Positions 4,759 to 17,646 of a stretch of DNA of 20,077 nucleotides are shown piece after piece. A program made the position numbers and the translations under genes. The notes beneath the pieces are model-generated. The model had not been told where the DNA came from and did no database searches. It saw only the letters and a list, made by a program, of their open reading frames with translations. Every line of letters starts with the position of its first letter. Position 1 is the first letter of the stretch. The stretch covers positions 1 to 20,077 of IMG/VR virus record IMGVR_UViG_3300024262_000321. One strand, given 5' to 3'. The DNA comes from a virus.

Positions 4759-4986
4759 TTAAACGACCATCATTGTTTCGTCTTCGTGGTTAGCTAATGG
4801 CTGGGTTAATAGAACATAATAGATAGTTCCATCTTCATTCTTGTAAAACACAAATTGATGTCCTGCGTTTTTAAGGTCTAAGTAAGTATTAAAGTATAAT
4901 TTATTTCTGGCAAGATTTTCTATAAACTCCTCAATAGATTCCAGCATTTGTGTTTGGAACTCTTCTTCTGTAATTTCTTCGGTCAT
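4759..4986 (-). CDS. small acidic protein of unknown function
   Basis: A 75-residue acidic protein with an N-terminal helix rich in Glu (TEEEFQTQMLESIEEFIENLARNK) and a C-terminal beta-type part (HQFVFYKNEDGTIYYVLL). I do not recognise a family. Its start is well supported: GGGGAGGGG precedes the ATG by four bases, one of the strongest SD sites in the window, and the ATG overlaps the stop of the upstream gene in an ATGA junction, so the two are probably translationally coupled. It lies between the HNH-like gene and the scaffold gene; a role in head assembly is possible but not shown. Confidence 0.7.
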   Translation of the reverse strand: MTEEITEEEFQTQMLESIEEFIENLARNKLYFNTYLDLKNAGHQFVFYKNEDGTIYYVLLTQPLANHEDETMMVV

Positions 4987-5213
4987 TTTCCCCTCCCCAT
5001 AAGATTCTTACGAAGTTCCTGAAGTTGTTTACTCGTCCATCTGTCTTGGTTGTAAACTATATCAAGAAATTCGTGTATCTCCGACAAGAGCATATTCTCA
5101 AAGCATAAATGAAATGCTATGTGAAACTTTAAGGGAATTCGTTGTGCCGTGTTCTTTCCCCTGTCTCTTGACTTCGGGATACGATGATGTCTTGATAACT
5201 TTTCTTTTCTCAG
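4983..5213 (-). CDS. small HNH-like zinc/nucleic-acid protein, apparent CTG start
   Basis: This 76-residue frame has no ATG, GTG or TTG before its conserved part. An in-frame TAA lies just upstream, and the only plausible start is a CTG at 5213, placed six bases after GGGAGAGG. The protein has an HNH-like pattern: HHRIPKSR near the N-terminus (H9, H10), N21, then H31 and H35, followed by ENM and a helical tail. Similar short HHRxPxSxGG...N...H...H proteins occur in bacterial and phage genomes, and I associate them with Patescibacteria, though I cannot check this. The stop overlaps the next gene's ATG (ATGA). It may bind or cut nucleic acid or may be a non-catalytic relative. It follows directly after a structured RNA region, so a functional link is possible. 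Start choice is inference. Confidence 0.62.
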   Translation of the reverse strand: MRKEKLSRHHRIPKSRDRGKNTAQRIPLKFHIAFHLCFENMLLSEIHEFLDIVYNQDRWTSKQLQELRKNLMGRGK

Positions 5214-5289
5214 TTTTTTCCTCTCCCTTTACAAAGAGCTTTACATAGATTTGAAAAACTTTTAAGTTCAAGGTTAATCAAAACTACAT

Positions 5290-5611
5290 AGGTTCAGCAA
5301 ATTAGTTTGCTGAGTAGGAATACTAATCTACGATTTACGGTATACCGAGTATAGTACGGGGCTTTCGCCCTTAGTATTCCAACCCAGAAAGCTATCTTGC
5401 TTAATAGTTAACAAAAGTGTTAACTATCTATGAACTATAATTCCCTATAAGCTGAATTGAGTGTTTTATAGATTGACTTGGAATTAAATCCAGGTTGCAG
5501 GTACACCGTTCTAAAAGACCTTCCACTCCTGTATACTTCGGGTATAGCCCTGACTTAATGCTATGCCTATATCCACATTCTTGGGTGGCACTCAACTCAA
5601 TTCAACTTACA
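5290..5611 (-). ncRNA. structured intergenic RNA of about 320 nt, type not recognised
   Basis: The 403 bases between the phosphoesterase and the HNH-like gene hold no credible gene but many perfect helices. (1) 5596-5610 pairs with 5447-5461, 15 pairs, with G-U wobbles that fit only the minus strand. (2) A 9-bp hairpin lies at 5404-5412/5419-5427. (3) A 10-bp helix, 5317-5326 with 5371-5380, encloses a GGGC-GAAA-GCCC hairpin (5359-5370, GNRA loop on the minus strand) and a second arm. (4) An 8-bp hairpin lies at 5294-5301/5306-5313. (5) A 5-bp hairpin sits inside the first domain at 5532-5536/5542-5546. The wobbles and GAAA loop say the RNA is read leftwards, with the operon. I see no group I or group II intron core, tRNA, tmRNA or known riboswitch. 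End points are approximate. Confidence 0.6.
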
Positions 5612-5616
5612 AAGAA

Positions 5617-6588
5617 CTATTTATAAAGTTTTCCTTTCCAAACAAACTTGTGATTGTCTATTATTATATTATAAAAGTTACTAACATCTCCGTCAAATTC
5701 TATTACTCCAATTCCTTGTTGCCAATCAGGATTATTCATATAAGCAGGATTCAATTTACACATACAACCTACTTCTGCTCCTAATCTAATGCCGTCTAAA
5801 TAGGTTCTTGGAGATATTCCTGTTCTGTGAATATGTGCTTGAATAACATCTACACCCATTTCTTCTCTTAATCCTTTAGCAGTATATCCAGCGTGTTTGC
5901 GAGCCATATCAAAGTGTCCTATATGATATTTTCCTACTTTAATATAATTGTGAGAAAACTTGCTCAATCCAGCTTCACAAGGAATATAAGTAATGTCTAA
6001 CTTTTCAAGATTAAGTCGTCTTGGTAAATCATCATAATAAGATTCATAAAGTGCTGGTGCATTTTTTAACAAGTATATTCTCCATCTAAATTCGTGGTTT
6101 CCTTCTATAAAAAATATCTGGGCTTTAGGAACAGTCTCTCTAATATCACTTAAAATATTATGAGCAATAGACATACTTTGTTCTATGCTTTCATCGCTGA
6201 AAGGAACTTTTGTGAATTTTGATATTATATTAAAATCTATTAAATCTCCATCAATAGCAATTATTTCAGGTTGTTCATCAAATAAAAACTCATTTACAGG
6301 TATTATTGTTCTGTTATCGTGAAAAGGAATATGATAGTCTTGTAAAGAAATTAACTTTCCCTTTTTAGGAGGTTTGATATTAATGTCGGGTCTGATAATT
6401 TCTGACCGAACTGGTCTTATTATCTTTCCCTTTCTAATACCCATTGCTTTAAGCTTACTTTTTATTGAATCATAACTTCTGTTTGGTAATTTTAACTTTA
6501 AATCATCTATAAATACTCCCCCATTTTCATAGTCATAAAGAACTTTTTCTTCTTTGTCTTCCCATTTTTTCACATATTGATTAGGCAT
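5617..6588 (-). CDS. calcineurin-like metallophosphoesterase with N-terminal DNA-binding-like domain
   Basis: A 323-residue protein. Residues 80-290 carry the metallophosphoesterase signature in order: DYH (D84, H86), GD (114-115), GNHE (163-166), GH (224-225) and HIH (H252, H254). This is the dinuclear metal centre used for phosphodiester or phosphomonoester hydrolysis. Residues 1-55 look like a Myb/SANT-type helix-turn-helix (KKWEDKEEKVLYDY..., then LPNRSYDSIKSKLKAMGI), which would bring the enzyme to nucleic acid. Phages often encode such enzymes; nuclease or nucleotide phosphatase roles are both possible. It sits inside the structural operon, between internal virion-type genes and the structured RNA. 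The ATG at 6588 is preceded by AGGAA at about nine bases and by a structured leader (6605-6672). Confidence 0.8.
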   Translation of the reverse strand: MPNQYVKKWEDKEEKVLYDYENGGVFIDDLKLKLPNRSYDSIKSKLKAMGIRKGKIIRPVRSEIIRPDINIKPPKKGKLISLQDYHIPFHDNRTIIPVNEFLFDEQPEIIAIDGDLIDFNIISKFTKVPFSDESIEQSMSIAHNILSDIRETVPKAQIFFIEGNHEFRWRIYLLKNAPALYESYYDDLPRRLNLEKLDITYIPCEAGLSKFSHNYIKVGKYHIGHFDMARKHAGYTAKGLREEMGVDVIQAHIHRTGISPRTYLDGIRLGAEVGCMCKLNPAYMNNPDWQQGIGVIEFDGDVSNFYNIIIDNHKFVWKGKLYK

Positions 6589-10784: not shown

Positions 10785-12422
10785 TTATTGTGGAATAATT
10801 AATTTAGTTCCTATTTGTAATTTCCTTGCAGTTTCTTCTGTAAATATCTCACCCTTTTCAGTCTTTAACTCTTTCCACCTTGACCAATCTTGTAGATATT
10901 GTTGAGAAATGCCAGATAATGTTTCACCAGCTTTCACAATATGAATCTTTGGTTCTGGCTTTGGTTCTACTGGTGTAACTGGCTCAACAGGTTCCTCAAC
11001 CTTCTCAGTCACAGGCACTGCACCCTCCTTTCTAATTTGTTCCTTTTTCTCAGCAACTTCTTTTTCTAATTGAGCTTTCTTTTCCTCTAATGGCGGAACC
11101 TCAACAACTTGTTCTAACACTTCTGGTTCTATTGGAGGAGTAATTAATTTTTCATATTCTTCTTCCGGAGTAGTTCCTCTTTGCTCAGCCAAAACCTCGG
11201 CTGTTGTTCTAAGAGCAACATCTTTAGCTGGAATAGTAGATATTTGCCTATAATATAAATCACTCACATAAGCAGCAGTATTAATACCAAACTTCTCTTG
11301 AAGACTTTTAAGACCAGCAAATCCTTTATCGTAATCTCCAGAATATTCTGCATCAGCCATAATAGCTTTAGCAGTTTTATCAATAGCATCTACCAAAGAA
11401 CCAATGCGATAATTTTCTATATTATTTAAATAACTTGCAAACTCACTTTTTTGAGCAAGGTTTTTATAATCTTGGTCAATGGCAGCAATCATAGATAATG
11501 GCACATAACCAAAATCACTCATTGCTGAAGTTCTTAAAGTTTTATCTTTAACTTCTTTTGAAAATTCTAATAAAAAGTCTTTAAATTCACCACTACCAGA
11601 ACCAGAAATATATGCCTCTCTCTGATGAGTCCAAAATTCTTGTTCTGATGCCCAATTTTGGCCATCAATATTAATAACAGATGTAGTATCAGCGTCAGCA
11701 ATAGCACCTCTAAGTAAATCCAATTTCTCCATAGCTGTTGCCCCGTCTTTCATCACCTTGAAATCAAAGTCGTGAAACTTTTGTTCAGTATTTAATTTAA
11801 CTTTTTGAGAATTTAAAGTCTGTATTTTAATATCTAAAAATGAAACCATTTCCTCATCACCAACAGACAAAGCTTCATTTCTCTTAACATTTACTTCAGA
11901 TAAAACTTTTTCTATGACAGATATACTGTCGTCTTTTTCAGCCAAAGTAATTTTATTTTTTAAAGCATTAACATCTGCTTTATGTTTTTCTATTTTTGCA
12001 TTAGAAATATTCTCTGAAATTTCAGCTCTCATCTCAGAATCAGTTTCCTCACTTAATCTCCTTCCCAATAAATCAATAAAACTGTCACTACTAATTTTAC
12101 CTTGTTTAAGTTCGGTATAAGAATCTAAATATTCTTTTCTTAACTTTTCAAATCTATTTAATTTTTTCAAAGTTCCAAGTTCGCCTTTAAGTTCAGAAAG
12201 AAAATCAGCATCAGGATATGTCTTAATTTTTTCTTCTTCAATCTGATTCTTACGATAACTCATTTGGTCTTCATAAGAAAGAGCTTCAGAAATTACCCTG
12301 CTTTGAAATTCCATTTCTTTAGAAAGCTGAATCCTTTTGCGAGAAGAATCAAAATTTTTTAATCTCGCCTTGATTACATCTTCTAAATCCAGTATGAAGT
12401 CTATTTTTCGTTCAACGGCCAC
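10785..12422 (-). CDS. coiled-coil protein with C-terminal LysM domain
   Basis: A 545-residue protein starting with GTG (an AAAGG stretch lies about ten bases upstream). Residues 1-230 are strongly helical and coiled-coil-like, rich in Glu and Lys. A Pro/Glu/Val-rich linker runs from about 425 to 494. The last 50 residues are a LysM module (HIVKAGETLSGISQQYL... to KLQIGTKLIIPQ), which binds N-acetylglucosamine chains in peptidoglycan. No hydrolase domain is attached, so the protein probably anchors or guides to the cell wall rather than cutting it, as would suit a virion protein used during entry. It abuts the next gene and follows the HNH gene by two bases. Its order next to other candidate internal proteins supports virion location. 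Confidence 0.75.
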   Translation of the reverse strand: MAVERKIDFILDLEDVIKARLKNFDSSRKRIQLSKEMEFQSRVISEALSYEDQMSYRKNQIEEEKIKTYPDADFLSELKGELGTLKKLNRFEKLRKEYLDSYTELKQGKISSDSFIDLLGRRLSEETDSEMRAEISENISNAKIEKHKADVNALKNKITLAEKDDSISVIEKVLSEVNVKRNEALSVGDEEMVSFLDIKIQTLNSQKVKLNTEQKFHDFDFKVMKDGATAMEKLDLLRGAIADADTTSVINIDGQNWASEQEFWTHQREAYISGSGSGEFKDFLLEFSKEVKDKTLRTSAMSDFGYVPLSMIAAIDQDYKNLAQKSEFASYLNNIENYRIGSLVDAIDKTAKAIMADAEYSGDYDKGFAGLKSLQEKFGINTAAYVSDLYYRQISTIPAKDVALRTTAEVLAEQRGTTPEEEYEKLITPPIEPEVLEQVVEVPPLEEKKAQLEKEVAEKKEQIRKEGAVPVTEKVEEPVEPVTPVEPKPEPKIHIVKAGETLSGISQQYLQDWSRWKELKTEKGEIFTEETARKLQIGTKLIIPQ

Positions 12423-12424
12423 CG

Positions 12425-12946
12425 TTATTTACCTTTTGCTCTACCTTTATAATTGTCAGTCAATTTATGACAATCTTCGCAGAGCGTAAGGCCATTACTT
12501 AATATAAACCTTAATTTCGGGTATTTAACCCACGACTTTTTATGATGAGCAGTTAAATAAACTTTGTTTGCTCTACACCCCTGACAAACATAGTTATCTC
12601 TTTCAAACACTTTCTTTCTCCACTTAATATATTCTACCGAATAATATCCTTCTTTGTAAAATCTTGAACTTCCCCCTTTCCAATTCGGGTGATTTTTCCC
12701 TTTTGGAAACGAATATGCTTTCGGAGATTTCGGCATTTTCTTTAATTGCTCTATATTACTTGGCATTTTTCCTATTCTTGATTTTTGATAACATTTTCTT
12801 GAACAAAATTTCGCAATATCTTTCCGATAAAAATAAATTTCAAATTCTTTACCACAACCTTCACACTCAACTTCTACTTTAGCATTCTTAAAAGCATTTT
12901 TCTTCCCTAAATTTATTTTATGTCCTTTTTGAAATCCTTTTGCCAT
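12425..12946 (-). CDS. free-standing HNH homing-type endonuclease with zinc finger and NUMOD3-like motif
   Basis: A 173-residue protein. Residues 28-52 form a zinc-finger pattern (C28, C31, C48, C52). Residues 80-92 (FPKGKNHPNWKGG) match the NUMOD3-type DNA-binding motif common in homing endonucleases. The HNH domain follows: C121-x2-C124, HH at 134-135, N151, and C156-x2-C159-H160 at the end. It is expected to make site-specific double-strand or single-strand cuts and to spread as a selfish gene. It sits between the portal gene and the LysM gene, with a gap of 15 bases to the portal stop, splitting the usual late gene order. The composition is Lys-rich, slightly unlike its neighbours. No intron structure flanks it, so it is free-standing. 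Confidence 0.85.
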   Translation of the reverse strand: MAKGFQKGHKINLGKKNAFKNAKVEVECEGCGKEFEIYFYRKDIAKFCSRKCYQKSRIGKMPSNIEQLKKMPKSPKAYSFPKGKNHPNWKGGSSRFYKEGYYSVEYIKWRKKVFERDNYVCQGCRANKVYLTAHHKKSWVKYPKLRFILSNGLTLCEDCHKLTDNYKGRAKGK

Positions 12947-16801: not shown

Positions 16802-16846
16802 GCAACTACCTAAAAATCCCTAAAACAACAGGAAGCTCAGGAAAAC

Positions 16847-16874
16847 TTGACAAGCTTTCTTGTTCTAATATAAT
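16847..16874 (+). promoter_or_regulatory. rightward consensus promoter in the divergent control region
   Basis: Perfect TTGACA (16847-16852), a 16-base spacer and perfect TATAAT (16869-16874) on the plus strand. Back-to-back with the leftward promoter at 16773-16801, the two -35 boxes are 45 bases apart. Its RNA would read antisense to the leader RNA at 16925-17120, then towards the 45-codon gene at 17362. Confidence 0.65.
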
Positions 16875-16888
16875 GAAATTAAGAACCT

Positions 16889-16948
16889 ATGGCAAAAGAG
16901 ATTTTGACAATCAAATACCGCTTAAAAATCCAAAACCGCCAGTTTTAA
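16889..16948 (+). CDS. possible 19-codon leader peptide
   Basis: The first ATG after the rightward promoter opens a 19-residue frame (MAKEILTIKYRLKIQNRQF) ending inside a strong hairpin (CCAAAACCGCCA pairing with TGGCGGT-G-TTTGG, 16930-16964). A short peptide that ends in a hairpin could control downstream reading, as in attenuation. There is no SD, and the composition alone is not distinctive. This is a weak call kept because of its promoter and hairpin context. Confidence 0.22.
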   Translation: MAKEILTIKYRLKIQNRQF

Positions 16949-16963
16949 CATTGGCGGTGTTTG
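16924..16963 (-). terminator. strong intrinsic terminator of the leftward leader RNA
   Basis: On the minus strand CCGCCA (16952-16957) pairs with TGGCGG (16936-16941) over a 10-base loop, flanking bases extend the stem, and the sequence continues TTTTGGATTTTT. This is a typical rho-independent terminator in the leftward direction. Rightwards the U-run is weak, so it is mainly one-way. Confidence 0.8.
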
Positions 16964-17120
16964 GTTACTTCCACAAGAAGTAAGCAATCGTGCAGGAGTT
17001 AAATCCTAACAGCGAATTGCGAATTTTCTTTTTTTGGTTAAATGTTAGGAACCTCATCTGACGGCGAAAACTTATACCGATAAGCTTTCACAGATGTTAT
17101 AAGCTCTTAATATTCAACCT
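16925..17120 (-). ncRNA. about 195-nt structured leader or small RNA upstream of the terminase operon
   Basis: A complete transcription unit: promoter at 17127-17155, predicted start near 17120, terminator at 16924-16963, and no convincing gene inside. The RNA can form CATCTG/CAGATG (17091-17096 with 17054-17059, the second holding an inner CTTAT/ATAAG hairpin with a 4-base loop), a long-range TCCTAACA/TGTTAGGA stem (17043-17050 with 17004-17011), TTACTTC/GAAGTAA (7 bp, loop TTGTG) and the terminator hairpin. Layout is as in lambda pR': short leader, terminator, then late genes starting with terminase. Two readings are possible: a regulatory leader opened by an antiterminator, or a stable small RNA. 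I do not recognise the RNA family; end points are predicted. Confidence 0.62.
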
Positions 17121-17150
17121 TGCTTGGTTATAGCACGACCAAGCAGGGTT
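17116..17150. repeat. 13-bp inverted repeat over the leader-RNA promoter
   Basis: AACCTTGCTTGGT (17116-17128) and ACCAAGCAGGGTT (17138-17150) are inverted with a 9-base centre and one wobble-type mismatch. The repeat covers the -10 and spacer of the leftward promoter, so it could be a repressor site or, if transcribed rightwards, a strong hairpin. Confidence 0.6.
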
Positions 17151-17155
17151 GTCAA
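17127..17155 (-). promoter_or_regulatory. leftward near-consensus promoter of the leader RNA
   Basis: Perfect TTGACA (17150-17155), a 17-base spacer and -10 TATAAC (17127-17132) with an extended TGC before it. Only one base of the -10 differs from consensus. It lies within a 13-bp inverted repeat (17116-17150), and a palindromic operator-like site (17158-17175) abuts the -35. Confidence 0.75.
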
Positions 17156-17157
17156 TA

Positions 17158-17175
17158 CTTTACAGTCGTAAAATA
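17158..17175. promoter_or_regulatory. operator-like palindrome, copy A (inverted orientation)
   Basis: TTTAC-AGTC-GTAAA palindrome, the inverse-orientation member of a four-copy 18-bp family (consensus TATTTTACGNNNRTAAAR). It lies two bases from the -35 of the leader-RNA promoter, a good place for a regulator that contacts or blocks RNA polymerase. Confidence 0.6.
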
Positions 17176-17180
17176 ATTAG

Positions 17181-17209
17181 TCCTGTTATAAAGAAAAAAA
17201 GTAACAGGA
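17181..17209. repeat. 8-bp inverted repeat with purine-rich loop
   Basis: TCCTGTTA (17181-17188) and TAACAGGA (17202-17209) pair perfectly around a 13-base A-rich loop. It lies between operator copies A and B; as no T-run follows, it is not a clear terminator. It may be a protein site or a leader hairpin. Confidence 0.4.
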
Positions 17210-17282
17210 GACCTTTGCTTTCTGGCTCTTCTTACCCGATAAGGGAAAAGAATAAAAGAGATAAAAAGATAAAGAGAATATC

Positions 17283-17318
17283 TATTTTACGATGGTAAAG
17301 TATTTTACGATGATAAAA
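17283..17318. promoter_or_regulatory. tandem operator-like palindromes, copies B and C
   Basis: Two head-to-tail 18-bp units, TATTTTACGATGGTAAAG (17283-17300) and TATTTTACGATGATAAAA (17301-17318). Each is centred on a TTTAC-N4-(G/A)TAAA palindrome. Direct abutment suggests cooperative binding of a dimeric regulator. They lie 44 bases ahead of the 45-codon gene. Confidence 0.65.
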
Positions 17319-17342
17319 TAGATTATATTCGTAAATCATAGG

Positions 17343-17360
17343 TATTTTACGGAGGTAAAG
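17343..17360. promoter_or_regulatory. operator-like palindrome, copy D, containing the SD
   Basis: TATTTTACGGAGGTAAAG matches copies B and C, but the centre is GGAG, which gives the SD GGAGG for the ATG at 17362. The RNA form can fold UUUAC-GGAG-GUAAA with the SD in the loop, so the site could act on DNA, on RNA, or on both. Confidence 0.6.
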
Positions 17361-17361
17361 T

Positions 17362-17499
17362 ATGGAAAGCTTGGGAGTGAATTTGGATACTCTTAGAGGT
17401 AGGGCAATGCACCATCACTTATCCGAGCTCAAAAGGAAACTACCCGTAAGGGGAAACCCGATATTAAAAAAGGCAATAGTGAAAGCTTATAAGGTATAA
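17362..17499 (+). CDS. 45-residue basic protein of unknown function behind an operator array
   Basis: The ATG follows GGAGG by six bases, the best SD on the plus strand. The product is MESLGVNLDTLRGRAMHHHL and then a basic part (SELKRKLPVRG...KKAIVKAYKV). It has a run of three His and is Lys/Arg-rich, but no recognisable fold; a small DNA- or RNA-binding regulator would fit the operator array just upstream (copies B, C and D). It is flanked by AT-rich spacers and ends shortly before a T9 run. Autoregulation through copy D is a natural guess. It is too short for a family assignment. Confidence 0.6.
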   Translation: MESLGVNLDTLRGRAMHHHLSELKRKLPVRGNPILKKAIVKAYKV

Positions 17500-17522
17500 A
17501 AGCATATATACTCTTTTTTTTT
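17484..17522 (+). terminator. possible weak terminator after the 45-codon gene
   Basis: A run of nine T (17514-17522) follows a weak imperfect hairpin (GCTT...AAGC) overlapping the stop codon. The stem is short, so termination would be inefficient. The stronger candidate is at 17768-17801. Confidence 0.3.
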
Positions 17523-17646
17523 ATTAAAAGGGAATTATGGTTTTAATGAGTGGGTCTATTAAGAGGGGAGGGAATAATAATGGAGCGAGTGAGAGGGAAG
17601 CACCCTTTAATCATAATCAATTTTTAATGAACCCTCATCTCTATTG

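Follow-up and report, generated by a model that had tools for sequence, protein, structure and literature searches.

The window analysed here is a virus record of 20,077 bases, and all coordinates are positions in it. Its minus strand carries a structural operon that includes genes for a terminase, a portal protein and an SU10-type major capsid protein, among others. An HNH endonuclease gene, weakly similar to the HNH portion of IscB, is inserted at 12425-12946, between the portal gene and a 545-aa gene. Further along the minus strand, a gap of 403 nucleotides (5214-5616) extends from the stop codon of a metallophosphoesterase gene (5617) to the apparent CTG start codon (5213) of a 76-codon frame, called HHRIP after its motif. 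The stop codon of HHRIP overlaps the ATG of a 75-aa gene (p75) in the sequence ATGA, and profile searches assigned p75 to no confident family. The stretch from p75 to the metallophosphoesterase gene (4759-6588) fills a slot between an 867-aa gene and a scaffold-like gene, and the contents of this slot vary among related phages. The slot is empty in L018 and L019, where the flanking genes are separated by 58 and 37 nt, respectively; it is occupied by a 163-aa gene in L016 and by two genes, one of them ATP-grasp-like, in L017. Neither the metallophosphoesterase gene nor the HHRIP frame was found at this place in the relatives that we laid out gene by gene. Since related phages have the slot empty or filled by other genes, 4759-6588 looks like replaceable cargo. 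The features of the locus are collected in Table 1.

Table 1. Genes of the cargo slot and parts of the structured region in the gap.
Feature	Position	Strand	Evidence or remark
Metallophosphoesterase gene, intact to the C terminus	5617-6588	-	Family match, alignment to the last residue
Whole structured region, running from the stop codon of the metallophosphoesterase gene as far as the HHRIP ribosome-binding site	5221-5620	-	Fold z -4.8 to -6.2; fills the gap
Domain A: 26-bp helix P1 (5620-5595/5462-5437, 5 G-U) closing about 132 nt	5437-5620	-	Shuffles reach at most 17 bp
8-bp hairpin GGCAUAGC/GCUAU(A/G)CC in domain A (5567-5560/5548-5541)	5541-5567	-	Holds the sole polymorphic base, 5543
Perfect hairpin, 10-11 bp	5403-5428	-	Helix search
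Domain B: long interrupted stem (5401-5371/5326-5296), three-way junction	5296-5401	-	Fold
8-bp perfect local hairpin UCAGCAAA-CUAA-UUUGCUGA	5294-5313	-	Competes with the lower domain B stem
3' hairpin, 12 + 5 bp	5242-5290	-	Fold
Small hairpin hiding the GGGAGAGG ribosome-binding site	5221-5238	-	Predicted, pair probability about 0.6
76-codon frame with HHRIPKSR...H..FH motif (HHRIP), apparent CTG start	4986-5213	-	No family match
75-aa gene (p75)	4759-4986	-	Start overlaps the stop of the 76-codon frame

The minus strand of the gap folds at -116.9 kcal/mol with a z-score of -4.83, and none of 100 shuffled sequences folded as well. Over the 20 kb, 99 minus-strand windows of 400 nt gave a mean z-score of -1.01 (standard deviation, 1.60). 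When scanned in 400-nt windows, the gap reached -5.7 and was beaten only by an intergenic region near 16.8-17.5 kb. That region (16824-17536) lies between two divergent gene blocks and folds more strongly than any other part of the window (z -6 to -9). It contains four operator-like palindromes TTTACNNNNGTAAA, at 17159, 17286, 17304 (one mismatch) and 17346; this palindrome matches 5 times in the window, where 1.6 would be expected. The longest helix found in 150 shuffles of the gap had 17 pairs, compared with 26 in the real sequence. The original prediction had placed a large unrecognised structured RNA at this point of the operon, and these values bear it out: we consider it very probable that the 403-nt gap encodes a structured RNA. 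The predicted interval, 5290-5611, does lie inside the gap, but the structure is wider and spans 5620 to about 5221. Similarly, what had been described as a 15-pair long-range stem is indeed a long stem, though one of 26 continuous pairs. This helix, P1, is unbroken and begins within the stop codon of the upstream metallophosphoesterase gene.

Two other predicted elements were located as described: the perfect 8-bp local hairpin at 5313-5294, and a 10-bp stem in domain B (5380-5371/5326-5317) that encloses a hairpin capped by a GAAA tetraloop (GGGC-GAAA-GCCC, 5370-5359). A loop of domain B carries a self-complementary palindrome, CGGUAUACCG (5347-5338). This loop could pair with domain A; we considered a pseudoknot between domains A and B, formed by ACGGUGUACC and GGUAUACCGU, and rejected it, as it was not better than in shuffles (p about 0.16). 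An outer helix between the tail of the metallophosphoesterase gene and the 5' end of HHRIP (5691-5673/5203-5183) is predicted by folding.

In order to choose between the strands, we took inverted repeats that had been selected without favouring either strand and read their irregular positions on the minus strand. These comprised 6 G-U and 0 A-C pairs (p 0.03), which supports an RNA transcribed from the coding strand of the operon, the strand that had been proposed from G-U pairs and the GAAA loop. This preference comes mostly from one helix, since most of the six informative G-U pairs sit in P1, and the two strands have nearly equal fold z-scores, the plus strand reaching -4.70 at -105.5 kcal/mol. 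Such near equality would suit inverted repeats that act as DNA, either as the remnant of a transposable element or as a site for a DNA-binding protein. Given the excess of G-U over A-C, the GAAA-capped hairpin on the minus strand and the fact that the repeats are not terminal, we regard a role at the DNA level as very improbable.

We then asked whether the RNA belongs to a known family. The Rfam search that had been proposed as a check, covering group I and II introns, HEARO, GOLLD and ROOL, was run on the window at an E value of 5 and on the gap, with a query of 451 bases, at an E value of 10; it returned only chance matches, far below gathering scores. As a positive control, the same scan recovered a group I intron in the related phage L016 with 91.5 bits. 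ARAGORN found no tRNA or tmRNA in the window. The RNA therefore matches no Rfam family, and the statements that the gap shows neither intron nor tRNA features and could not be matched to GOLLD or ROOL held. Profile searches with the frames inside the gap matched no protein family. It is well supported that the gap folds into two domains plus hairpins, that its frames belong to no protein family and that the RNA belongs to no Rfam family.

Relatives were equally scarce. Blastn of 50,697 phage records and 72,556 plasmid records revealed no homologue of the gap, and the capsid-protein relatives L015-L037 (38-73% identity) showed no such RNA. We built covariance models of domain B (R1) and domain A (R2) and ran them over related phage loci. 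R1 had no match in these loci, nor in 22 whole related records. A match of R2 at L024:14544-14623 was discarded, as it rests only on a long hairpin that lies within a coding frame, shows no similarity in the core and has a score equal to that of the window's reverse complement. One related phage, L037, lies on a contig of 42.7 kb that was assigned to a Neomarinimicrobiota MAG; this is our one clue to a host, and the assignment is possibly wrong. Among 245 genomes of that phylum, we found a 24-nt chance match only. Scans of IMG/VR with back-translated stretches of domain A and of domain B, with the HHRIP protein and with the HHRIP DNA motif all led to a single record, L004 (4,146 bases, 99.9% identical), which holds the sole other copy found.

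Within the gap, L004 differs from the window at one position, 5543, where it has a G that converts a C-A mismatch into a C-G pair in the 8-bp hairpin of domain A. The change improves the fold of the gap, which has a z-score of -6.24 in L004. It ranks 6th in stabilisation among all 1209 single substitutions, 5th among the 403 transitions and 5th among the 132 A-to-G changes. The substitution is consistent with pairing and, as one event between two copies, lends support rather than proof. Read on the plus strand, the C-A mismatch of the window becomes a G-U pair, which counts against the minus-strand preference.

Three known systems invite comparison. Phages and prophages carry ROOL RNAs, frequently close to tRNA islands, and the HEARO RNA studied in the same work has 343 nt (PMC12286853). 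The gap RNA is like ROOL and GOLLD in being large, structured, phage-borne and without a protein frame, and its self-complementary CGGUAUACCG loop could let copies pair in the way that kissing loops do in those RNAs, for which a cage built of several identical RNA molecules is characteristic. It differs from them in that it matches neither model, is shorter, lies among structural genes and has no tRNAs around it in the window. With HEARO, or omega RNA, and its HNH proteins IscB and IsrB, it shares the position of a structured RNA beside an HNH-like frame; however, the HEARO model does not match, and the adjacent frame, which at 76 aa falls far short of the size of IscB or IsrB, belongs to no family that we could match. 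The third system is the L016 intron (L016:11946-12190), which is followed by an HNH gene (12261-12875) and apparently interrupts, after NLFNFK, a gene that L021 and L022 have intact. Similar in size and with the same order of RNA and then HNH, it could suggest that the gap holds a ribozyme or intron together with its HNH-like gene, as a mobile element that is derelict or has escaped recognition, in a slot that is variable among related phages. Yet the gap gave no group I score where the L016 intron gave 91.5 bits, and no match to group II, HEARO or any other mobile RNA even at an E value of 10. It also interrupts no gene: there is no split exon, since the metallophosphoesterase aligns to its last residue and p75 has its own ATG. 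A mobile element is therefore unlikely. As the gap RNA did not match the sequence models of ROOL/GOLLD, HEARO or group I introns, we file it under none of them, although it may still work like ROOL or GOLLD.

The frame downstream bears on a different possibility. An HNH-like gene had been announced directly after the RNA, and a 76-codon frame with an HHRIPKSR motif, which we take to be HNH-like, does follow; however, it matched no HNH profile in Pfam, PHROGs or NCBIfam and lacks an ATG, GTG or TTG start, so that it appears HNH-like by its motif only. Its CTG is placed behind GGGAGAGG, a good ribosome-binding site. AlphaFold, run on the 76 aa without an alignment, gave a model with a pLDDT of 62, which we set aside. 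The HHRIP sequence is itself somewhat structured (z -2.7 with dinucleotide shuffling), and none of 200 synonymous-codon shuffles folded as well.

The RNA ends at this ribosome-binding site, itself inside a predicted hairpin, which raises the main rival to a free RNA: a cis-acting leader. As the 5' untranslated region of HHRIP and p75, it would control their translation through the 5' arm of domain B, which would pair alternately with its own 3' arm and with the region around the HHRIP start. Two competing folds fit such a switch. When the long domain B stem forms (-127.5 kcal/mol), the HHRIP start is mostly open; when the local 5313-5294 hairpin forms instead (-127.8 kcal/mol), the CTG start is covered by pairing of the 5' arm with 5215-5194. 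Because HHRIP and p75 overlap in ATGA, one switch would serve both. On the other hand, the switch helix, which was chosen by eye, ranks no higher than 111th among 2865 windows of 26 nt (top 4%), which makes it weak evidence; a leader of this type would be long at 400 nt; domain A would have no role; and the coding status of HHRIP has no support from homologues. We hold the leader to be possible and the lesser prospect.

P1 may indicate what happens to the RNA. A helix of 26 bp is long enough to be an RNase III substrate, and the RNA could thus be cut out of the late transcript. In its simplest form, this would make the region one of RNA processing or stability only, with P1 as an RNase III site separating transcripts and the remainder as stabilising hairpins; the good substrate length of 26 bp and the start of P1 at the stop codon agree with it. 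A simple hairpin would suffice for that purpose, whereas P1 closes 132 nt and is followed by a second branched domain, and we judge processing alone to be quite improbable. The region would also seem too large and too complex for a common RNase III site or for a hairpin that merely covers a ribosome-binding site.

The explanation that we prefer is an orphan structured RNA of ∼400 nt, on the sense strand of the operon and in a variable cargo slot, that acts as a released RNA; we give this reading about even weight. The RNA would be co-transcribed with the late genes, and host RNase III would cut P1, where the metallophosphoesterase gene ends. Against this reading, sites resembling promoters or terminators near the gap did not exceed what shuffled sequences yield. 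Once released, the RNA would have a function of its own as a scaffold or as a binding RNA, broadly comparable to the ornate phage RNAs, and its CGGUAUACCG loop could pair with another copy. Whether the gap RNA acts as a free molecule is, in our estimate, an evenly balanced question. More tentatively, it may represent a new class: phage RNAs of ∼400 nt whose two domains are held together by a pseudoknot or kissing contact, which multimerise or bind a phage protein and which phages carry between virion genes as cargo.

The discovery of ROOL and GOLLD relied on their many relatives, and searches based on covariation miss orphan examples. The present case, which offers a defined sequence for probing and is made from a single genome by strand bias, a helix of 26 bp and a polymorphism that restores pairing, suggests that further RNA classes lie in the cargo slots of phages.
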